Part shown: positions 22,664 through 42,110 of the stretch, one piece after another
Layout: every line of letters begins with the position of its first letter
How positions within the stretch are numbered: the first letter of the stretch is position 1
Source of the DNA: Polyangiaceae bacterium
GTDB taxonomy: Bacteria; Myxococcota_A; Polyangia; Polyangiales; Polyangiaceae
Reading direction: 5' to 3'
Assembly: GCA_020848455.1 (NCBI GenBank)
Contig: JADLAB010000153.1
Span: forward strand, 1-42,110
DNA: 42,110 nt
Made by a program: the position numbers and the translations under genes
Notes under the pieces: model-generated
What the model saw: only the letters and a program-made list of their open reading frames with translations
The model's database searches: none
What the model was told of the DNA's origin: nothing

Positions 22664-24970
22664 ATGGCGAACGGCAACGGCGGATGGCAAGGCGGACCCG
22701 GCGGGCCCGCCCAGGGACAACCTGCGGGCGGGGCGGGCGGCGGCGGACCGCAAGCACCGGATCCCTACGGTCCGGGGGCGACGCAGCTGGCGGGTCCCAA
22801 CTTCGCGCCACCCGGGCAGGCACCCGGCTGGAAGCCCGTCGCCGCGACGGTCCTGCAGCCCGCCTACACGGGTGAGCCACCGCAGGCACCGCAGGCTCAG
22901 CCGCAGCCGCAGGGCTACCCGCAGCCCCAGGCCCAGCCGCAGCAGCCGCAGGGCTACCCGCAGCCCCAGGCCCAGGCGCAGGGCTACCCGCAGCCCCAGG
23001 CTCAGCCGCAGCCGCAAGCGTACGGTCAGCCGCAGCCGCAGGGCTACCCGCAGCCCCAGGCTCAGCCACAGCCGCAGGGCTACGCGCAGCCCCAGGCTCA
23101 GCCGCAGGCGCAGGGCTACGGCCAGCCGCAGCCGCAAGCCTATGGCCAGCCGCAGCCGCAGGGCTACCCACCACCCCAGGGGCCTGCAGCAGGGGCGCCC
23201 CATGCGCAGGGCCAGAGCTACGGCCAGCCCGGCTACCCGGCACCCCAGCCAGGCTACGGGCCGCAGCCGGGTCAGGCGCCCGCGAAGCCGGCGGCGAAGA
23301 AGTCGCGGCTGCCGCTCGTCGTCGGCGGCGTCGTCGGGCTCGGTGCGTTGATCGGCGCCGTCCTGCTCGTCGCGCGCTGCGGTGGGGGAGCGGCCGCGCT
23401 GCCGTGCGACCTCGCGAAGCTGCCGGCGCAGACGAAGGAGATCCGGCGCGAGTCGATGACGCGCGGCGTGGCGCGCTCGCTCGGCATGAAGGCGAGCGAG
23501 CTGCCGAATGCGGCGCGCTGGTCGTCCGCCGGACAGATCTTCTGCGGTGGGACCGACGTCTTCCGGGATCTCGTGCGCGCGCGGAGCTCGTACGCGCGCG
23601 ACGAGGTGGCCCAGGCACTCGCCAAGAAGGACGAGCTCACCGAGCTCGTGCGCTGCGGCAAGGCGGCGGCCGGCGAGCTCGGCAGCGACCCCATCTACTA
23701 CCGCGTGGCGTTCGCGAGCGGCGACAAGAAGGTGCGCGTCGGGCTCGTGAAGAGCGGCCTCGACAAGCTCGATCCGAAGCCCGCGCGCATGCAGGAGACG
23801 AGCGAGATCGCGGGTGCCAGCGGCTACTGCCGCCTCGGGGAGGGCGGCAAACCGGGCGACAAGTGCAGCGACGAGGCCAGCAGTCTCGTCAAGCTCGGCT
23901 CGGACGACCTGTGGATGGGCGGCGACCTCGGCGCTCTGCGCGCCTTCGCGGCCGCATTCTCGGCGGGCGGTAACAACACCGTGACGAACGGCGACGACCT
24001 CGGCGCGCTCGCCAAGACGCTCGCCGACTATGACGGCTACCGCATCGGGAGCCCGGAGTCCTTCGACCTTCCCCTGCCCGGCAAGGCCGCCGACGACGTC
24101 GAGAAGAAGCTCGAGGAGGCGACGAAGGCCGGTCTCAAGGTCTGGGGCTGGGGCGAGCGGGTCACGCCCACCGAGGCCGAGCTGCGCATCGAGCTCGTGT
24201 GCAAGGACGAGGCGGCGGCCAAGGGCATCGGCGAGGCGCTCAAGGCCTACGCGGCGTCGGTCGCCGAGGCGAACAAGAAGCGCGAGGCCGACAAGCCGCC
24301 GGCGCCTGCCAAGGGCGACGACACCTCGGTCGAGCAGCGCGAGGCCGAGCAGGCCGGCGAGGCGATGGGGCGCCGCATGGCGGACGCGGCCAAGGTGGAG
24401 GTCGACGGCACCAAGGTCCTGATGGTGGTCAAGGGCGAGGCGACCAGCGACGAGGTGAGCAAGCTCGAGGCGTACGCCAAGACGATGCGCACGCGCGCCG
24501 AGCAGGCCGCGAAGATCGTCGAGAAGCTCGCCGAGGGCGAGGCTCCGAGCGACGCGGACCTCGAGGCCCTCGGCGGCAAGGAGCTCGTCGAGGCGGTCAA
24601 GAACCCGAAGCCGAAGTGCGCGAAGGGCGATCCGTCGTGCGACCCAGACGCAAAGCGCCCGCCGCCGCCCGCGGCGGACGCGTGGGTCTTCGTACCGTCC
24701 GTGCCGGGTATGCGCGTGCCGGCGGGCGGCACGACGAGCACCATGAACGGCGACGGCTTCACGGCCTACGAGTACCGCTACGTGCCCTTCGACGCGCAGA
24801 TCGGGGCGCGCTTCCTCGGCGACGCGCGCGCGCAGGGCTGGACGCTCACCGAGCGCAAGGACGTACAGGGCGCGCTCGCCTACGAGATGGTGCGCAGCGG
24901 CGTCCGGTGCTTCGTGCTCATCAGCAAGGACACGAACGGCGCCCTCGTCTTCAGCTTCCTGCCGAAGTGA
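22664..24970 (+). CDS. Membrane protein with Gln/Pro/Gly-repeat cytoplasmic tail
   Basis: A 768-residue protein from ATG 22664. The first 210 residues are low complexity (PQPQAQPQPQGY-type repeats), presumably a disordered cytoplasmic tail. A single transmembrane helix follows at about 212-234 (LPLVVGGVVGLGALIGAVLLVA). The large C-terminal part (235-768), with scattered pairs of cysteines, is expected outside the cytoplasm. No known domain is recognised; it may hold two related alpha/beta segments (about 300-520 and 560-768). The stop TGA lies inside a perfect 10-bp hairpin shared with the convergent gene. Function unknown. Confidence 0.85.
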   Translation: MANGNGGWQGGPGGPAQGQPAGGAGGGGPQAPDPYGPGATQLAGPNFAPPGQAPGWKPVAATVLQPAYTGEPPQAPQAQPQPQGYPQPQAQPQQPQGYPQPQAQAQGYPQPQAQPQPQAYGQPQPQGYPQPQAQPQPQGYAQPQAQPQAQGYGQPQPQAYGQPQPQGYPPPQGPAAGAPHAQGQSYGQPGYPAPQPGYGPQPGQAPAKPAAKKSRLPLVVGGVVGLGALIGAVLLVARCGGGAAALPCDLAKLPAQTKEIRRESMTRGVARSLGMKASELPNAARWSSAGQIFCGGTDVFRDLVRARSSYARDEVAQALAKKDELTELVRCGKAAAGELGSDPIYYRVAFASGDKKVRVGLVKSGLDKLDPKPARMQETSEIAGASGYCRLGEGGKPGDKCSDEASSLVKLGSDDLWMGGDLGALRAFAAAFSAGGNNTVTNGDDLGALAKTLADYDGYRIGSPESFDLPLPGKAADDVEKKLEEATKAGLKVWGWGERVTPTEAELRIELVCKDEAAAKGIGEALKAYAASVAEANKKREADKPPAPAKGDDTSVEQREAEQAGEAMGRRMADAAKVEVDGTKVLMVVKGEATSDEVSKLEAYAKTMRTRAEQAAKIVEKLAEGEAPSDADLEALGGKELVEAVKNPKPKCAKGDPSCDPDAKRPPPPAADAWVFVPSVPGMRVPAGGTTSTMNGDGFTAYEYRYVPFDAQIGARFLGDARAQGWTLTERKDVQGALAYEMVRSGVRCFVLISKDTNGALVFSFLPK
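22890..23175. repeat. Imperfect tandem coding repeats (Gln/Pro/Gly/Tyr)
   Basis: Repeated units around CAGCCGCAGGGCTAC and CAGCCCCAGGCTCAG encode the PQGYPQPQAQ tail of the membrane protein. Copies are near-identical in DNA, so the array is recent or homogenised. Confidence 0.75.
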
Positions 24971-33440: not shown

Positions 33441-33459
33441 GCGCGGCGCGGGCCTCAGG
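33436..33459. terminator. Weak inverted repeat at convergent stops
   Basis: A 6-bp stem CCTGAG/CTCAGG with a 12-base loop includes the stop codons of the M19 gene (33438-33440) and the ExbD-like gene (33455-33457). Confidence 0.3.
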
Positions 33460-33988
33460 GCGCGCGCTCGGGGGTGAGCGACACGGCCGTCACGCCGGCC
33501 TTGCGGAGCCCGTCGAGCAGCGCCACCACCGTCGCGTGCGGGGTGTTCGGGCCCGCCGAGACGACGACCCGAGGCATCACGCTGTCGAAGCGAGCGAGCG
33601 CGATGCCCACGAGCTCGGCGTAGCTCGCCGGCGGCGCGTCGGGCAGCAGGAGATAGGGCGCGTGGGGGTAGTCGAAGCTCACGCTCACGCGACCGTCCGG
33701 CCCGGTGCGCAGCTCCAGGCGGACGACGGGCTCGGTGTCGGCGGCGGCGGAGCTCGATGCGCTCGAGCTCGGCACGCCGACGGCGCTCGGCGCTGGGGCA
33801 GCGCGCCCGGACGAGGTCGCGGGGCCCGGGGCGCTCGAGCGCGCGGCGCTCGGGGCCGTCGCGGAGCTCGGGCCGTCGGCGCCACACGCCCCGAGCGCGC
33901 CCGTCGCGAGCACGACGCCGAGCACCCGACCGACCCGACCGCGGGGCCGCACGCCAGGCGCTCGGGCGAGCTCACGACGACGACTCAC
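33455..33988 (-). CDS. Lipoprotein with ExbD/TolR-like domain
   Basis: A 177-residue protein from GTG 33988, preceded by GGGGAG at a good distance. The signal (LGVVLATGALGAC) puts the lipid on Cys35; a twin-arginine-like basic N-terminus is also present. After an Ser/Ala/Pro linker, the C-terminal part (about 85-177) resembles the periplasmic domain of ExbD/TolR: RVVVSAGPNTPHATVVALLDGLRKAGVTAVSL. Unlike ExbD, it has no transmembrane helix with the key Asp, so it cannot use proton flow itself. It may act as a binding domain at the membrane. No partner exbB or tolQ is near. Confidence 0.75.
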   Translation of the reverse strand: MSRRRELARAPGVRPRGRVGRVLGVVLATGALGACGADGPSSATAPSAARSSAPGPATSSGRAAPAPSAVGVPSSSASSSAAADTEPVVRLELRTGPDGRVSVSFDYPHAPYLLLPDAPPASYAELVGIALARFDSVMPRVVVSAGPNTPHATVVALLDGLRKAGVTAVSLTPERAP

Positions 33989-34176
33989 GGGCGTCTCCCC
34001 TCTCCTCATCGGCCTCATCCTCGGCCGAGACTCTCACGGAGGCTCGCGCGGAGGAACCGCCGAGACGCGCGGGCGCACCGTGCCGTGCTCGGGCCTCGCG
34101 GCCGCCGCACCGCGGTGCTACGGCGGGTGCGGCTCTCGCAGCTCGCGGGGGTGGTGGCACGACGGAGGGTGGCGTG

Positions 34177-36465
34177 ATGCAACTTCGATCCTTGGGCTTG
34201 GCTGGTGTGCTCGTGAGCGCTTCGCTCGTGGGGGCGGGCTGCAACGAGGACACCACGACGGACTTCCCCACGACGACGACGACCACCTCGAGCACGACCT
34301 CGAGCACGACCTCGAGCACGTCGACCGGCGGCGGTGGCCAGGGCGGCGACGGCGGCCAGGGCGGCGTCGCGAACGTGTGCGGCGACGGCAACGTCGCCGG
34401 AAGCGAGGACTGCGACGACTCGGGCGAGAGCGCCACCTGCGACGCCGACTGCACCTTCGTCACCTGCGGCGACGGCACCCAGAACACGGCCGCGAGCGAG
34501 GAATGCGACGACGGCAACACGGCGGACGACGACGGCTGCGATGCCGTCTGCGTCGACGAGTTCTGCGGCGACGGTCTCGTCAACGACGTGACCGAGACGT
34601 GCGACGACGGCAACGCCGTGGCCGCCGATGGCTGCGATGCAGCCTGCGCGGTCGAGGCGGACTTCGTGTGCTCGGGCGAGCCGAGCGTGTGCCTGGCGCG
34701 CGACGGCTCGTGCGCGGCGCCGCTCTTCATCGACGTCGTGGGCGGAACGGGCACGGCGACGGGCGACACGACCGGCGCGGGCAACGACGTCGCGGCCGCC
34801 GTCTGCGACGGCTTCACGAGCGGCGCGGGCGCCGACCTCGTCTACGAGGTCTCGCTCCCGGGCGGGGAGGACGTCCTCATCGAGCTCGCCCCGAGCCACG
34901 ACGGCGTCGTGCGCCTGCTCACGGCGCCGTGCGACCTCGCCACCGAGGTGAGCGAGCCGGGCGAGCCCGAGGGCTGCGCCGACTCCGTGGGCCCCGGCGG
35001 CACCGAGACGCTCGAGTACGTGAACCTCCCGGCCGGCACCTACTACCTCGTCGTCGACGGCTACGTCGCGGCGAGCGAGGGCGCCTTCGCGCTGACCGTC
35101 ACGACGACGGCCACGCTGTGCGGCAACGGCGCCATCGAGGCACCCGAGGGCTGCGACGACGGCAACGCGGCGGACGGCGACGGCTGCAGCGCGCTCTGTC
35201 AGGAGGAGCCCGGGTACAACTGCGCCAACGAGCCGTCGGTGTGCGTTTCGACCTGCGGCAACGGCGCGCTCGACGATGCCTCGGAGCAGTGCGACGACGG
35301 CGACGTCGCGGGCGGCGACGGCTGCGACGCGACCTGCCAGATCGAGCCGGGCTACAAGTGCTCCGGCACGCCCTCGACCTGCGTCGTCGCGTGCGGCGAC
35401 GGCATCGTCGACACGAGCCCGGCCGAGGAGTGCGACGACGGCAACGCCCTCGACGGCGATCGCTGCTCGGCCACCTGCATCCTCGAGTCGACGGTCACCG
35501 AGACGGAGCCGAACGGCACCGTCGCCGAGGCCGACCCCGTCGCAGCCGGCGACATCGTGCGCGGCTCGATCACGGCGGGCGACGTCGACGTGTTCGTCCT
35601 CACGCTCGCGGCGCCCTCGCTCGTCGACCTCGAGATCTACACGACCATCGACGGCAACGCGGGCAACTACGGGGGCCTGGGCACCCTCGATCCGCTGGTC
35701 GACTGCACCGCCGACCCCGATCTGCGCATCTTCGACAGCACCGGCGACGTCGCCGACGACGCGACGGCGCTCGCCTACGACGACTTCGACGGCGACGGGC
35801 TCTGCCCCTACCTCGGCCCGTCCGAGGACACGGCCATGATGCTGCAGCCGGGCACCTACTACATCAAGGTCAACGGCTTCACCGCGAGCGATCTCGTCGC
35901 GCTCTACGCCCTCGACATTCACGTCACGGCCGCGGCGCCGCCGGCGGTCGACGGGCTCATCATCAACGAGTTCCTCGCCAACGACTCGACCTTCGACGCG
36001 AACTGCGACGGCAGCACCGTGCAGGAGCAGGACGAGTTCGTCGAGCTCGTCAACGTGACGGCGAGCTTCGTGGACCTCACGGGCGTGCAGATCTTCGACG
36101 AGACGCTCGTCACCCCGAAGCACACCTTCGCCCCGCTCGGGCTGCGCCCCGGTGAGGCGGTCGTGGTGTTCTCGGGCGGGACGGCGAGCTGCGCGAGCTT
36201 CGCGGGTGTCACCGTCCTCATCTCGCAGAACGCCCTCAGCTTCAACAACACGAATGCCTCGATCACGGTAGAGGACGCCGCCTCGGCGACGCTCGCCACG
36301 GTGTCGTATGCGACCTCGACGGCAGGCGTGTCGAGCAACCTCACGGCCGATGCGACCGACACGGTGGTCGGCACGACCTGCGGCGCGTTCGTGAACCACA
36401 ACCTGGTCGTCGGCGCCGTCGGCAACTTCTCGCCGGGGACCCGCGCCGACGGGAGCGCGTTCTAG
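34177..36465 (+). CDS. Cys-rich DUF4215 / lamin-tail surface lipoprotein
   Basis: A 762-residue protein from ATG 34177 with GGAGGG upstream. The signal MQLRSLGLAGVLVSASLVGAGC lipidates Cys22, followed by a Thr/Ser-rich stalk and a Gly linker. Six DUF4215-type repeats (CGDGxxxxxEECDDGNxxDGDGCxxxC) come in two blocks of three. A PPC-like beta domain sits between the blocks (about 175-310), and a second after them (starts ETEPNGT, about 445-585). A lamin-tail (LTD) domain ends the protein (about 590-700: LIINEFLANDS...EFVELVNVTASFVDLTG). All are extracellular binding folds, so it is a large surface protein of unknown ligand. Acidic, Asp-rich repeats may bind calcium. Confidence 0.92.
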   Translation: MQLRSLGLAGVLVSASLVGAGCNEDTTTDFPTTTTTTSSTTSSTTSSTSTGGGGQGGDGGQGGVANVCGDGNVAGSEDCDDSGESATCDADCTFVTCGDGTQNTAASEECDDGNTADDDGCDAVCVDEFCGDGLVNDVTETCDDGNAVAADGCDAACAVEADFVCSGEPSVCLARDGSCAAPLFIDVVGGTGTATGDTTGAGNDVAAAVCDGFTSGAGADLVYEVSLPGGEDVLIELAPSHDGVVRLLTAPCDLATEVSEPGEPEGCADSVGPGGTETLEYVNLPAGTYYLVVDGYVAASEGAFALTVTTTATLCGNGAIEAPEGCDDGNAADGDGCSALCQEEPGYNCANEPSVCVSTCGNGALDDASEQCDDGDVAGGDGCDATCQIEPGYKCSGTPSTCVVACGDGIVDTSPAEECDDGNALDGDRCSATCILESTVTETEPNGTVAEADPVAAGDIVRGSITAGDVDVFVLTLAAPSLVDLEIYTTIDGNAGNYGGLGTLDPLVDCTADPDLRIFDSTGDVADDATALAYDDFDGDGLCPYLGPSEDTAMMLQPGTYYIKVNGFTASDLVALYALDIHVTAAAPPAVDGLIINEFLANDSTFDANCDGSTVQEQDEFVELVNVTASFVDLTGVQIFDETLVTPKHTFAPLGLRPGEAVVVFSGGTASCASFAGVTVLISQNALSFNNTNASITVEDAASATLATVSYATSTAGVSSNLTADATDTVVGTTCGAFVNHNLVVGAVGNFSPGTRADGSAF
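34285..34320. repeat. Three exact 12-bp repeats in the Thr/Ser stalk
   Basis: The unit ACCTCGAGCACG occurs three times without mismatch (34285, 34297, 34309), encoding the TSST stalk of the DUF4215 lipoprotein. Confidence 0.85.
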
Positions 36466-36479
36466 GACCGCCTGGCCAG

Positions 36480-36518
36480 GCAGCGGGGAGCGCGCTCGGC
36501 TACGGCCGGCGCGCTCCC
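36480..36518. terminator. Terminator-like hairpin, copy 1 of a repeated element
   Basis: GGAGCGCGC, a bulged T and CGG pair with CCG and GCGCGCTCC around a 6-base loop CTACGG. One further G-C pair extends the stem. It follows the DUF4215 stop by 20 bases. The same arms and spacing recur at 40493-40530. Confidence 0.55.
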
Positions 36519-36528
36519 TCGCAGTGGC

Positions 36529-36593
36529 GCGGAGCGGAGGCCGACGACCACGTACTTTCCGTACGTCGAGGAGGCCGAGCGAGCACGCTCCGC
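36529..36593. repeat. Second inverted repeat in the same intergenic region
   Basis: An 8-bp outer stem GCGGAGCG/CGCTCCGC (36529-36536 and 36586-36593) encloses a 6-bp inner stem ACGTAC/GTACGT (36550-36566 with loop TTTCC). It may terminate the minus-strand FadL gene. Confidence 0.35.
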
Positions 36594-36632
36594 AGATCCG
36601 GATGCATCGTTCGCCGCAGCAGGGCGCGTTGC

Positions 36633-38057
36633 CTAGCGCCCCACCAGGGTGTTCAGCTGCTTCTGCAGCGCGACCCAGTCTGCGGTGAGCGACCGCGTGA
36701 AGCTGAGGACCGCCGTGCCCGTGGTCTGCTGCGCGCTCCCCGGCTCGCCTCGCCCGAGCGCCCCGTCGCGCCACGCGAGCGAGTCGATCTTGCCCGCGCC
36801 CTGCCGCGCGGCGAGCGCCAGCGTGAAGGTCCCGGCCTCGGACACGTAGCGGGCGCCCACCGTCGCGCCGACGAACGTCATGGTCGTCGCGCCGGCGACG
36901 TCGAACGCCGTCGCCGAGGGGAGCGCCGCCGTGTCGGCCCGCGCTCCCATCAGCAGCGACACCGAGTCGACCAGGAACACCTCGAGCCCGAGGGCGACGT
37001 TCGCCGCGAAGCCGCTCTCGGGGACGGCGAGTGTCGGGTCCCACGGCTCTTGCGCACCGCCGGCGCCGAGCTCGCTCGCGCCGCCGAACAGGTCGTAGCC
37101 CAGCATCGGCAGGTAGCCGGTCACGTCGAAGGCCACGGTCATGCGGCGCGCGCGATAGCCGGCACCCAGCCCCAAGCCGAAGGGGTGCGGGTAGCGCATG
37201 GTGCCCTCGACGTCGTGCAGCGTCGTCTGCCTCGAAGCCACGCCGCCTTTCGTCTCGCTCTCGACGAAGGTGTGGGTCGAGGTCGAGTACACCGGCAGGT
37301 TGGGGAAGCGCAGCCTGAGCCCGCCGCTCCAGTGCTCGTCGAAGCGCACGAGCGCGCCGAAGATGCCCGTCAGCCCGACCTGCTCGCCGCTGCTGCGGCG
37401 CGTGCGGTGGAGCTCGTAGCGCCCACCGAGGGCGGCGGGCGCCGCGACCACCTGCAGGCTGTCGAGCCCGATCGACGCGTACTCGACGTAGAGGGTCGCG
37501 CCGAAGAAGGCCGGCCCGGCCCGGACCGCAAAGCTCGGACCGAGGAGCAGCTCCTTGTCCGTGATGTCCGACTCGACGATCACGTCGACGGCGTCGCCGG
37601 CCGAGCGCAGGCCCTGGCCATGGCTCACGTCCGAGATCACCGGCGTGACCAGGCTGAACCCGAGCGTGCCCGCGGCACCAAGAGGAAACGAGTACGCCGC
37701 CGACGTCGAGAGCGCTCCGAACGAGGTCGTGGAGGCGGGCGCCGTCGCTCCGTCCACGCGCACGAGCCCTTCCTCCGCGTTCACCACACCCCCCAGGCCC
37801 TGCACCGAGAGCGCGAGGATGTCGACGTCGAGCTGGGCGAGCCCGGCCGGGTTGTAGAAGGCGGCGGAGGGCTCGTCCGCCAGCGCGATGGCCGCACCGG
37901 CCATGCCGCTCGCGCGGCCACCGAACGCGACGTGCTCGTAGCTGCCGCGCTGCGCCGCGGCTTGCCTCGCGCTCGAGAGCACCGCCAGGACGACGCACGC
38001 GCGGAGGATGCGGGCGCCACCGCCGACCCCCGAACCGCGTTGCTTATCGGCTCCCAT
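36633..38057 (-). CDS. FadL/OMPP1-family outer-membrane transporter
   Basis: A 474-residue protein from ATG 38057. A signal peptide (about 1-35, ending ARQAAAQ) is followed by the FadL signature AFGGRASGMAGAAIALADEPSAAFYNPAGLA. The rest alternates polar and hydrophobic residues as expected for a 14-strand barrel. The family moves long-chain fatty acids and other hydrophobic compounds across the outer membrane. It begins 3 bases after the stop of the patatin gene, so the two are co-transcribed. The C-terminus (LNTLVGR) is not the usual aromatic end. Confidence 0.93.
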   Translation of the reverse strand: MGADKQRGSGVGGGARILRACVVLAVLSSARQAAAQRGSYEHVAFGGRASGMAGAAIALADEPSAAFYNPAGLAQLDVDILALSVQGLGGVVNAEEGLVRVDGATAPASTTSFGALSTSAAYSFPLGAAGTLGFSLVTPVISDVSHGQGLRSAGDAVDVIVESDITDKELLLGPSFAVRAGPAFFGATLYVEYASIGLDSLQVVAAPAALGGRYELHRTRRSSGEQVGLTGIFGALVRFDEHWSGGLRLRFPNLPVYSTSTHTFVESETKGGVASRQTTLHDVEGTMRYPHPFGLGLGAGYRARRMTVAFDVTGYLPMLGYDLFGGASELGAGGAQEPWDPTLAVPESGFAANVALGLEVFLVDSVSLLMGARADTAALPSATAFDVAGATTMTFVGATVGARYVSEAGTFTLALAARQGAGKIDSLAWRDGALGRGEPGSAQQTTGTAVLSFTRSLTADWVALQKQLNTLVGR

Positions 38058-38060
38058 GGC

Positions 38061-40439
38061 TCAGAACGGGCTGTTGAGCTGGATGCCCACCATCGGGCGC
38101 ACGCCGAAGCGATGCGACTGCTCGGCGTGCATGCGCGGCATGAAGACGCCGGCGACGTGCAGCCGCACGATGCCGACGAACGTGCTCGCGACGTAGGCCT
38201 CGGTCAGGAAGCGCGAGCACGGCAGGGTGTCCTCGTCGTCGAAGTCACAGGCTTCGCGGGTGAACGAGTCCGCGGTGGAGAACTGGTAGCCGGCGCGAGC
38301 ACCCAGGCGAAGCTGCGCATGGGCGCCAGCGAGCACCTCGAACTCGAGGCCCGCCTTGGGCCGCAGCCCGAGGTAGTTGTCGTCGGAGTCGAGCAGCGAC
38401 GAGAAGCCGTCGAGCTCGAGGGCCGCCGTGAAGCGCATCCACGAGGCGTCGGGATCGTCGATGCCCACGCTGTAGCCGAGCTCGGCGCCGAGCCCGAGGC
38501 TCATGTGCAGGATGTGCACCGGCGGCACGTAGCCGAGCGCCAGATCGACGCCGACGCGCCCGAGCACGCCGAGCGGCAAGCCGTTCTCGGGCTGGCCCGC
38601 CGCCAGGTGCGACACCATGTCCTGCGCCAGGCGCAGGAGCACCCAGCGCGCGTCCTCGGCGTTGTCTCGATCGAGGCCGAGGTCGTGAAAGTAGAAGTGG
38701 TAGGCCCCGAGCAGGCGCAGGAGGTAGTCGAGGTCGCTCTCTGCCTCCGCACGCAGCCGCTCGCCGTCGGGCAGCGCCGTCACGCCGGGGACCCTCCGCG
38801 TCGCGGCGTCGCTGCCGCAGTCCGGGTGGTCGGCGGCGGCGGCGCGGCAGAGATCGAGCTGCCGGTCGAGCGTCACCTGCGCGAGGATGCGGAAGTCCTC
38901 GAGCGCCTCGCCGCTGCAGCGGTCGGCCGGGTCGCCCTCGCCATCGAAGACGGCGCGGAGACAGCCGAAGGGTCGCCAGCCCTCGACGGCCGCGGCGTCG
39001 CCATCGGCCGTGAAGACGTCCTCGGGAAAGCGCGTCAGCGGCCCGAGGGCGCCTCGTCGCGCCGCGCGCGCGGCGTCGTACATGCCGAGGTAGAAGTCGA
39101 ACTCGCGAAACGACCGCTCGAGCAGGCCGCCGAAGGTGCTCGAGATGTGCGGGAAGCGGCGGCTCGTCAGCACCAGCCGGTCGCGGATCTTCGGCTCGCG
39201 CTCGAAGACGCCGAGCAGCTCCGACGAGAAGGCGCTGTCGACCATGCCGAACATCTCGGCGAGCACGCCGAAGACGCCCGTGACCGGGGGTGCGTCGCTC
39301 GCTGCCGGCAGCGGGAAGGTGCTGACCCGCGGATCGACGTAGTAGAACTTCGACTCGGGCAAGAAGCTCGCGCGCGGCGTGTCGGCGATGGCGAGGGCGC
39401 CGTCCGGGCCACGCGTCACGCCGCGCATGGCCTGGAGCGACAGGCCGAGCGGCTGGTTGTCGAAGACGCCGCCGTCGACGAACTGGGCCGAGACGGCCTC
39501 GCCGGGCGTGCAGCGGGGCGGCTTGCCGGGCTCGCTCAGGCAGTGCGCGACGTCGACCGGCATGAAGCCGACCGGGAAGGCCGACGACGCGAAGACGAGC
39601 GCCTGGAGCGCCTCGAAGGGCCGGGCGTCGTCGCCGTCGAGGGGCAGGATCATCTGCGGGACGGCCTGCACGGGATCGACGTAGTTACGCAGCTGGGGGG
39701 GCTTGCCGGCGCCCCGCCCGGTGATCCTCAGGAGCACCTTCTCCACCGTCCGCGGCAGGCTGGGGAAGCCGGGCATGAGCTCGACGATGCGCGGCCGCAG
39801 ACGGCTGACGGCGATGCCGACGAGCACGTCGCAGCTCTCGGGCAGGCCTGCGCTCCAGCGCCGGGCGAGCTCGGCGAGGGCCGGCTCGAAGCCGTGGCGC
39901 GAGAGCAGCGCGGTCTCGCCCTGGCGGTCGGGCTCGTAGAGCTCGCGCAGGCCGACGGGGATCCACACGCCCCACTGGACGCTCGCGCGAGGCGAGCGCG
40001 CCATGGGCCCGCAGTCTGCGAGCACGGAGATCAGCGTGTTGATCGCGCCGGCCGACGCGCCCGTGTACACGCGCGGCTCGGCGCCGGTGTCCGAGAGGCG
40101 CAGCGCGTGCTCGGTGTAGTAGAGCTGCCCGGCCATGTAGGCGCCCTTGGCGCCGCCGCCGCTGATGGTGATCGACATCGGCGCGCGTCCGGCCGCGGGC
40201 TCGACGACCGCCGGCGGCGGGGGTCCGTCGTCGCCCGCGGGTTGCCCATCGCCCGCGGCTTGCCCGTCGCCCGAGGCCGCCTCCTCGGGCGGAGCCTCGG
40301 CGGTGGACGGCTCGGGCCCGCCCCCACCGGCGAACGCGTGGCGCGGGAGCAGCGAGCACGTCAACGCCAGCGCGGCGAGTCGGCCCCAGGCGCGAACCGC
40401 GCCGCGAGGTGCCGCCTCTTCGAGAGGTCTTCGAGACAT
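38061..40439 (-). CDS. Patatin-like phospholipase with barrel-like C-terminus
   Basis: A 792-residue protein from ATG 40439. A signal peptide (about 12-38, ending HAFAGG) and a Gly/Asp/Pro linker with GDGQ repeats precede the patatin domain (about 88-400). The oxyanion loop is SGGGAKGAY (93-101), the nucleophile Ser129 lies in GASAG, and the catalytic Asp322 lies in VDGGVFDNQ, so the Ser-Asp dyad is complete. A middle helical domain (about 400-620) follows. The last 160 residues have alternating strands and end in NSPF, the terminal Phe of an outer-membrane barrel. This suggests a PlpD-like surface phospholipase, though I see no POTRA domain. Operon with FadL. Confidence 0.9.
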   Translation of the reverse strand: MSRRPLEEAAPRGAVRAWGRLAALALTCSLLPRHAFAGGGGPEPSTAEAPPEEAASGDGQAAGDGQPAGDDGPPPPAVVEPAAGRAPMSITISGGGAKGAYMAGQLYYTEHALRLSDTGAEPRVYTGASAGAINTLISVLADCGPMARSPRASVQWGVWIPVGLRELYEPDRQGETALLSRHGFEPALAELARRWSAGLPESCDVLVGIAVSRLRPRIVELMPGFPSLPRTVEKVLLRITGRGAGKPPQLRNYVDPVQAVPQMILPLDGDDARPFEALQALVFASSAFPVGFMPVDVAHCLSEPGKPPRCTPGEAVSAQFVDGGVFDNQPLGLSLQAMRGVTRGPDGALAIADTPRASFLPESKFYYVDPRVSTFPLPAASDAPPVTGVFGVLAEMFGMVDSAFSSELLGVFEREPKIRDRLVLTSRRFPHISSTFGGLLERSFREFDFYLGMYDAARAARRGALGPLTRFPEDVFTADGDAAAVEGWRPFGCLRAVFDGEGDPADRCSGEALEDFRILAQVTLDRQLDLCRAAAADHPDCGSDAATRRVPGVTALPDGERLRAEAESDLDYLLRLLGAYHFYFHDLGLDRDNAEDARWVLLRLAQDMVSHLAAGQPENGLPLGVLGRVGVDLALGYVPPVHILHMSLGLGAELGYSVGIDDPDASWMRFTAALELDGFSSLLDSDDNYLGLRPKAGLEFEVLAGAHAQLRLGARAGYQFSTADSFTREACDFDDEDTLPCSRFLTEAYVASTFVGIVRLHVAGVFMPRMHAEQSHRFGVRPMVGIQLNSPF

Positions 40440-40492
40440 CGCGCCGGTGACGCTATTACGCGCGGCCCAAGGTCCGCAACCGGATCGGGAGT

Positions 40493-40530
40493 GCAGCGGG
40501 GAGCGCGCTCGGTCAGGTCCGGCGCGCTCC
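40493..40530. terminator. Terminator-like hairpin, copy 2 of a repeated element
   Basis: The left arm (20 bases) and right arm (12 bases) are identical to the element at 36480-36518; only the 6-base loop differs (TCAGGT). It lies 5 bases beyond the stop of the GDPD gene and upstream of the patatin start. Confidence 0.55.
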
Positions 40531-40534
40531 TGCG

Positions 40535-41530
40535 CTACGGCCGCCTCGCGCGCGCGCGCCGCGCCGCGAAGAGGGCGAGCCCGAGCCCGGAGAGCCCTGC
40601 CGCGAGCCACCCGCTCGCGCCGCGGCCGCCGACCGAGCAGCCGCTCGTCTCCTCGGCCGGCGCGGGGCACTCTGCGGCGCAGGCCTCGGCCCGCAGGCTC
40701 GCGACGAGACCGGGCTCGTCCGAGATGATGCCGTCCGCTAGGCCGAGCATCTTGCCGATCGAGGCCGGATCGTCGACCGTCCACGCGTTGAGCGTGAGCC
40801 CGGCCGCGTGTACGTCGGCGGCGAGCGTCGCGTCGACGGCGAGGTAGAACGGGTGCAGGGCGTCGAAACCGCGGCTCGTGGCGACGGCGAGGTCCGCCGG
40901 ATCGACGCCGAGCAGGCCCACCGGCACGGACGCGTCGAGCGCCTTCACCAAAGTGAGCACCTCGGCGTCGAAGGAGCTCACCAGGAAAGGCCGGCTCTTC
41001 GCGTCGGCATGGATGGCCGCGACGACGTCGGCCGCGAGCAAGGAGCGGTCGGACGCGGGGCAGCTCCCGCCGCTCTCGATCTTGATCTCGATGTTGACGC
41101 CGACGTCGACGGCCGCGAGCACCTCGTCGAGCGTCGGGATGGTGACGCCGGTGCCCGCGAGCGGCGTGCCCGCGGCCGCGTCGAGCGCCGCGAGCGCTGC
41201 GAGGTCGAGAGCGCCGGCGCAGCCGGTGCCGTCGGTCGTCCGGTCCACGGTCTCGTCGTGCAGCACGACGAGCGCACCGTCGGCCGAGTGCTGCACGTCG
41301 AGCTCGATCCAGTCCGCCCCCTCGGTCACGCCCTGCTCGAAGGACGGCAAGGTGTTCTCGGGCCACGGATTGGCGGGGCCGTTGGTGCCCGTGCCGCGGT
41401 GTCCCATCACGACGACCGCGGCCTCTCGGCAGGAGCAGTCGGCCCGGGCCTCGCCCGACATGAGCACCGTCGAGCCGAGGGCGAGCCCGAGCGCGGCGAG
41501 CGGGCGGAGCGGGCGGGCGGGGAGCTTCAT
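40535..41530 (-). CDS. Glycerophosphodiester phosphodiesterase with MYXO-CTERM tail
   Basis: A 331-residue protein from ATG 41530 (a start at 41566 would spoil the signal). The signal peptide (about 1-30) ends in GEARA. The GDPD barrel has His44-Arg45 (GHRGTG), Glu58 (PENTLPSF), Glu76 and Asp78 (WIELDVQ) and His91 (VLHDETVDRTTDGTG), the complete catalytic set for hydrolysing glycerophosphodiesters to glycerol-3-phosphate and alcohol. The C-terminus reads SGCSVGG (Cys298), a hydrophobic helix and RRARARRP, the MYXO-CTERM pattern processed by myxosortase, which anchors the mature protein at the cell surface. It precedes the patatin and FadL genes on the same strand. Confidence 0.95.
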   Translation of the reverse strand: MKLPARPLRPLAALGLALGSTVLMSGEARADCSCREAAVVVMGHRGTGTNGPANPWPENTLPSFEQGVTEGADWIELDVQHSADGALVVLHDETVDRTTDGTGCAGALDLAALAALDAAAGTPLAGTGVTIPTLDEVLAAVDVGVNIEIKIESGGSCPASDRSLLAADVVAAIHADAKSRPFLVSSFDAEVLTLVKALDASVPVGLLGVDPADLAVATSRGFDALHPFYLAVDATLAADVHAAGLTLNAWTVDDPASIGKMLGLADGIISDEPGLVASLRAEACAAECPAPAEETSGCSVGGRGASGWLAAGLSGLGLALFAARRARARRP

Positions 41531-41600
41531 GCCCCCGATCAGTACGCCTGCCGGGCCGGTGCGCAAGAGCCGTTGACGGGCACCCGACGCGGCCTCGGCT

Positions 41601-42110
41601 TCATCGCGACCCTCGCGCCGGCCGAGGCGCCGGCGCAGGCGCAGGCGAGACGAGCGCCACCTTGAGCTCGAAGTGCCGGCCCGACGGCAGCGTGAAGTAC
41701 GCGCGGCCCGGCCGGTCGGGCGTCGGGAGCTCGTGGCCGAGCTCGATCTGCTCCTGCGGCTCGCGCTGCTCGAGCGACAGCTCGAGCGCGAGGGTCTCGG
41801 TGCCGGCGATGCTGTCGCCCCAGAACGCGAACTGCCCGGCCTGGAGCAGGATGCGCGCGCTCTCGAGCATGGCGCGCACGAGGGGGCGCGCGTCGGCGGG
41901 ATAGGCGAGGTCGGTGAGCTTGCCGTCCGCGTCGACCGTGATGCGCACCGTGAAGGTGCCGAGCTTGCCGAGCGGTTCCGTCGCCCAGCCGGTGTGGCCG
42001 CTCGTCGCCGCCGGGATGACGCGCGTGAAGGCCTTGGCGACGTTCTGGAAGCCGGCCGGCGCGTCGAGCGCGCCGTGCCGGCCCGAGCCGGCGCCCGGAC
42101 CCGTGCTCCG
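41601..42110 (-). CDS. TonB-C-terminal-like protein (N-terminus beyond right edge)
   Basis: At least 169 residues, open to the right edge. The visible part begins GPGAGSGRHGALDAPAGF and holds a TonB/TolA-like beta region: GTFTVRITVDADGKLTDLAYP, then a helix (PLVRAMLESARILLQAGQF) and a long strand pair. It ends in a Pro/Ala/Arg tail. In myxobacterial genomes such domains are on energy-transducer TonB-like proteins with a single N-terminal membrane helix, which would lie outside this window. No exbB or exbD partner is visible. Confidence 0.65.
   Translation of the reverse strand, partial: RSTGPGAGSGRHGALDAPAGFQNVAKAFTRVIPAATSGHTGWATEPLGKLGTFTVRITVDADGKLTDLAYPADARPLVRAMLESARILLQAGQFAFWGDSIAGTETLALELSLEQREPQEQIELGHELPTPDRPGRAYFTLPSGRHFELKVALVSPAPAPAPRPARGSR

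Follow-up and report, generated by a model that had tools for sequence, protein, structure and literature searches.

A patatin gene and a FadL-fold gene as a candidate two-gene outer-membrane lipid module beside a resident glycerophosphodiesterase gene in a Polyangiaceae bacterium

The window analyzed in the present study, a 42,110-nucleotide contig of a Polyangiaceae bacterium, carries three consecutive genes on the minus strand, which a preliminary description, the coordinates of which we confirmed, had assigned to a single phospholipid-scavenging cassette at the cell surface. Sequence comparisons indicate that the unit consists of two of these genes, namely, a patatin gene (38061-40439, 792 aa; PF01734 match and predicted structure) and a gene for a FadL-fold outer-membrane protein (36633-38057, 474 aa; weak Toluene_X match and predicted fold), which are gained or lost together in one block, and that the glycerophosphodiesterase (GDPD) gene (40535-41530; PF03009 match) is a fixed neighbor that ends at its own hairpin. 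We propose with moderate confidence that the pair represents a module for the uptake and processing of lipids in the outer membrane, located in an indel block between the resident GDPD gene and a convergent gene.

Regarding the layout of the locus, only three bases separate the patatin and FadL-fold genes (TGA GCC ATG), as previously described, and 95 bases lie between the GDPD and patatin genes. The hairpin reported in the latter gap is real; it is located 4 bases past the GDPD stop codon (copy A, 40493-40530, minus strand) at -34.3 kcal/mol with a z score of -5.4, and no shuffled sequence was equally good. A direct repeat of this hairpin (copy B, 36480-36517, minus strand), identical at 34 of 38 bases, lies between the FadL-fold gene and the convergent gene on the plus strand (34177-36465), the product of which contains DUF4215/myxo_disulf_rpt repeats and a lamin-tail domain. 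Past the FadL stop codon, a further possible hairpin with the loop GGAAA (36530-36590) was not significant (z score of -1.2), and no consensus sigma-70 promoter or U-tract terminator was found at the locus, which is weakly informative at such a GC content.

The limits of the unit emerged from a comparison with a sister genome of the same genus (G001; completeness of 86%), the closest sequenced relative, which is 91-96% identical to the window from position approximately 19.6 kb up to the window end. In this genome, the GDPD gene is followed by a single hairpin and then by the DUF4215-repeat gene, which is resident in both genomes. Window positions 33457-36522 and 40497-41590 meet at positions 2371-2409 of the sister locus (L069) with an overlap of 39 bases in blastn alignments. 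The segment that is absent (36523-40496, minus strand; the ends are approximate to within one repeat length) contains the patatin and FadL-fold genes only, neither of which was found in whole-genome searches of the sister assembly at its completeness of 86%. The breakpoints fall in hairpin copies A and B, one of them between GDPD and the patatin, and the loop of copy B is identical to that of the single sister hairpin. Since the two genes are jointly missing between hairpin repeats, they appear to have been gained or lost as one block next to a resident GDPD gene, and this joint absence is an observation in favor of the module. A deletion in the sister genome by recombination between the repeats and an insertion in the genome of the window (G000) both fit the junctions, and, thus, we claim no direction. 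No DUF4215 homologue was found near the GDPD genes of more distant relatives (approximately 45-55% identical), so that this neighborhood does not polarize the change.

A mobile element was rejected as the origin of the segment because it has no recombinase of its own, comprises the patatin and FadL-fold genes only, and ends in a repeat without further genome copies. A genome-wide repeat family behind the hairpins was also rejected because the 38-bp repeat with the shared right arm occurs at only these two places in the genome. Few stretches of the window resemble the host more closely than this segment (tetranucleotide distance rank of 132 out of 153; GC of 72.9% vs. 74.1%); this host-typical composition lends no support to a recent transfer from a compositionally foreign donor, and any transfer would have come from a similar genome or be old. 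Searches for phage families gave no matches for the patatin or FadL-fold protein, and no plasmid homologues of the patatin were found.

Just upstream of GDPD, an additional gene is present on the opposite strand in the sister genome (L069, 534-1311), and encodes a secreted protein of approximately 250-270 aa with a beta-barrel-like appearance and no Pfam match. The window keeps just the 3' end of this gene at approximately 41590-41640 (GFIATLAPAEAPAQA), such that the two genomes differ on either side of GDPD. A frameshift is present in the sister GDPD gene (L069, approximately 2050-2095), with the C-terminal part in another frame, due to either a sequencing error or true decay. Elsewhere in the window, the internal repeats (22880-23180) of the 22664-24970 ORF gave several overlapping alignments to the sister genome, which suggests a difference in copy number between the genomes.

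The GDPD protein matched its family over the full length (PF03009, 145.7 bits, E 3e-42), and an alignment to a bacterial GDPD (PDB 2pz0) recovered the catalytic HRG...E...ExD...HD pattern, with intact HRG, PENT, ELDVQ, and HDETVDRTT motifs. It is otherwise ordinary and differs from such enzymes in its MYXO-CTERM-like tail. In the earlier assignment of a MYXO-CTERM GDPD, the enzyme family and its motifs were upheld, and the tail was borderline, scoring 19.3 bits where the cut-off is 20. By eye, the tail is tripartite, with SGCSVGG, a hydrophobic stretch, and an Arg-rich end; the MYXO-CTERM tail has been described as a C-terminal Cys motif, a transmembrane stretch, and an Arg-rich tail (PMC11980579).

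In the cassette as first conceived, the patatin would strip phospholipids outside the cell, the FadL protein would import the fatty acids, and a surface GDPD would cleave the deacylated remnant, which was suggested to suit a predator that digests prey membranes. The three genes are adjacent and co-oriented, the chemistry fits, and the GDPD carries the borderline surface-sorting tail described above. However, the sister genome has GDPD at this site and lacks the other two genes, a breakpoint separates GDPD from the patatin gene, a strong hairpin follows the GDPD stop codon, and a periplasmic location is the most likely one for the patatin domain, as discussed below. Conserved synteny, the absence of which had been set in advance as a refutation, was also searched for, and the GDPD-patatin-FadL order was kept in none of 97 relatives and at none of the approximately 30 patatin loci examined; no GDPD was found near any of these patatin relatives. 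We consider this three-gene arrangement to be very improbable as a functional unit.

The patatin matched PF01734 at 56.3 bits (cut-off of 27.7, E 7e-15), and its catalytic motifs are as intact as originally stated, with an SGGGAKG oxyanion loop, the nucleophile in GAS129AG, and Asp322 in DGG. A signal peptide (AFA cleavage site) and a low-complexity linker up to approximately residue 80 precede the patatin domain (84-470), which is followed by a helical domain with conserved cysteines (approximately 480-636) and an eight-stranded barrel (approximately 638-791) with a terminal Phe. The barrel-like end in the preliminary description was confirmed in an AlphaFold model (23 sequences, pLDDT 81, pTM 0.81), in which residues 638-791 matched OmpA, OprF, and NspA over the entire barrel (Z of approximately 14, rmsd of 2.0-2.3 Å) and residues 84-470 matched CapE and PlpD (Z of 18-20). 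A search of PDB sequences with the patatin profile gave no match. In an alignment of 23 patatins, several cysteines were conserved family-wide; most of these proteins have SGGVSLGAYEAG for GGGxxG in the oxyanion loop, and the proteins of the window and of NORP301, a Nannocystaceae MAG, have the classical SGGGAKG.

The side of the membrane on which the patatin works depends on the barrel. DSSP assigned eight strands, the first two of which are split by a single residue; the barrel may, therefore, have seven strands, with the patatin domain then outside, which counts against the proposed module. At this junction, homologues often have turn-like residues (NRP, TSP, and NNV) and two have an insertion, which favors a hairpin between strands 1 and 2. 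Since an even number of strands and the OmpA/OprF topology would place the N-terminal catalytic domain on the side of the C terminus, the modeled patatin domain most likely faces the periplasm and not the surface, which makes the initial placement of all three proteins at the surface doubtful.

A comparison with the type Vd patatin-Omp85 proteins PlpD (Pseudomonas aeruginosa) and FplA (Fusobacterium) is informative in this respect, as they share with the window protein a signal peptide, a patatin domain (Z of approximately 18 for PlpD), and a C-terminal outer-membrane barrel. PlpD consists of a POTRA domain and a 16-stranded Omp85 barrel besides its patatin domain, whereas the window patatin has the cysteine-bearing helical domain and an eight-stranded OmpA-type barrel instead. 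Its classification as a type Vd autotransporter was rejected because a Pfam scan at E<=1 recovered the patatin domain only and eight strands are too few for a 16-stranded barrel. The patatin domain of PlpD was experimentally shown to be periplasmic, and its loss increases endogenous phospholipids (PMC11116518); periplasmic catalysis is likewise likely for the window patatin.

Members of the FadL family form a 14-stranded barrel plugged by an N-terminal hatch with an NPA motif. The window protein has a signal peptide, an N-terminal hatch with NPA at 69-71, and approximately 14-15 strands, and the best matches of its model (7 sequences, pLDDT 73) were all FadL/TodX hydrophobe transporters (Z of 31-36; E. 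coli FadL, Z of 35), with BamG/PorV at Z of 27-32. It differs from FadL/TodX in its identity of only approximately 13% and in the location of its gene 3 bases downstream of a patatin gene, and its match to Toluene_X (PF03349), which covers residues 25-156 only, scored 24.1 bits, below the gathering cut-off of 29.7. The FadL transporter of the preliminary description was thus supported in its fold and not in its sequence score, and we regard the protein as FadL-fold by predicted structure, not as a confirmed FadL. The missed cut-off and the presence of the non-transporters PorV and BamG in the superfamily argue against the module. Matches to PorV/PorQ and BamG were weak (NCBIfam E 2e-5 to 1e-3) and far below the equivalog cut-offs, and no partner gene of the type IX secretion or BAM machinery was recognized beside the window gene.

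Patatin relatives of such a length were patchy, with hits in 7 of 97 relatives (E<=1e-10), 17 of 379 genomes of the phylum draw (E<=1e-20), and 19 of 318 class genomes (E<=1e-90). The predicted architecture of a patatin domain, cysteine-bearing helical domain, and eight-stranded OmpA-type barrel may mark a class of patatins, approximately 30 relatives of which were found, mostly in Myxococcota with a few in neighboring phyla. The patatin-FadL pair was present in 2 of the 318 class genomes, the other being NORP301 (locus L019, by coordinates the same contig as G502:C109), in which the order is the same, the gap is 4-7 bases, and the patatin and FadL-fold proteins are 51 and 44% identical, respectively. 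In a maximum-likelihood tree, the two patatins were joined at 100/100, apart from those of the family to which the window belongs, which fits a transfer between families. The recurrence of the order and tight spacing across family lines argues for a module and, together with the joint presence or absence of the genes, sustains the pairing originally proposed.

On the other hand, the pair occurs in two genomes only, and no FadL lies downstream of a third closely related patatin, an end fragment of 99 residues (G342) that is 54-60% identical to the other two. These points, and the occurrence of both families in many unrelated settings, would also be expected if the two genes were chance neighbors with unrelated roles that are linked by shared transfer only. 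We regard this as quite unlikely because a spacing of 3-7 bases was kept in two lineages at 44-51% protein identity and each of the genes encodes an outer-membrane protein from a lipid-related family. The neighbors of other patatin relatives varied, no patatin was found beside distant FadL relatives (27-31%), and we found no description of a patatin-FadL operon in the open literature. Patatins of different families in the order (L027, 2265-3845; L028, 3328-5442) each follow a large same-strand ORF, which may encode a sensor protein.

According to the module that we favor, the patatin and FadL-fold genes would be co-transcribed on one transcript. The FadL-fold protein would take a hydrophobic acyl substrate from the outside and pass it sideways into the outer membrane, as FadL-type ligand release is lateral (PMC9329746), and the patatin, anchored by its predicted eight-stranded barrel with its catalytic Ser-Asp domain facing the periplasm, would hydrolyze acyl-ester lipids at the inner leaflet and provide fatty acids for use. 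With lateral release and an inward-facing anchored patatin, import would come first and cleavage second, in the reverse order of the cleavage outside before import that was initially suggested. The fit of the two models and the precedents of PlpD (PMC11116518) and FadL (PMC9329746) are consistent with this sequence of events. In M. xanthus, FadL is required for fatty-acid uptake, and a fadL mutant, which fails to import an analogue of palmitate, continues to form lipid bodies (PMC4048283), which makes FadL-dependent feeding plausible in this group and not essential for development.

The increase in endogenous phospholipids after the deletion of PlpD (PMC11116518) and the service of the FadL-fold proteins BamG and PorV to protein machines suggest another role, namely, PlpD-like envelope maintenance, in which the patatin trims the cell's own or misplaced phospholipids at the inner leaflet of the outer membrane, with a FadL-fold partner that either has a structural role or transports the products, and no nutrients are imported. 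We consider this role unlikely; the pair is accessory in the class (2/318 genomes), for which a niche function is more suitable than upkeep, and the FadL-fold model is slightly closer to FadL/TodX than to BamG/PorV.

The patatin architecture is uncommon, and the contrast between presence and absence is clean. A broader proposal, in which an undescribed class of outer-membrane patatins and a dedicated FadL-fold channel provide import-then-cleave lipid feeding and pass as a block of two genes from one myxobacterial family to another, is possible, but tentative. Even if the module is incorrect, the locus will still represent a clean case in comparative genomics in which a neighbor, GDPD, was distinguished from a true gene pair. 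If it is correct, the locus would provide a defined lipase-channel pair for studies on lipid uptake in myxobacteria, with a near-identical sister genome lacking the pair as a natural comparison, and a patatin on the smallest kind of barrel would raise the question of the side of the outer membrane on which such lipases work.
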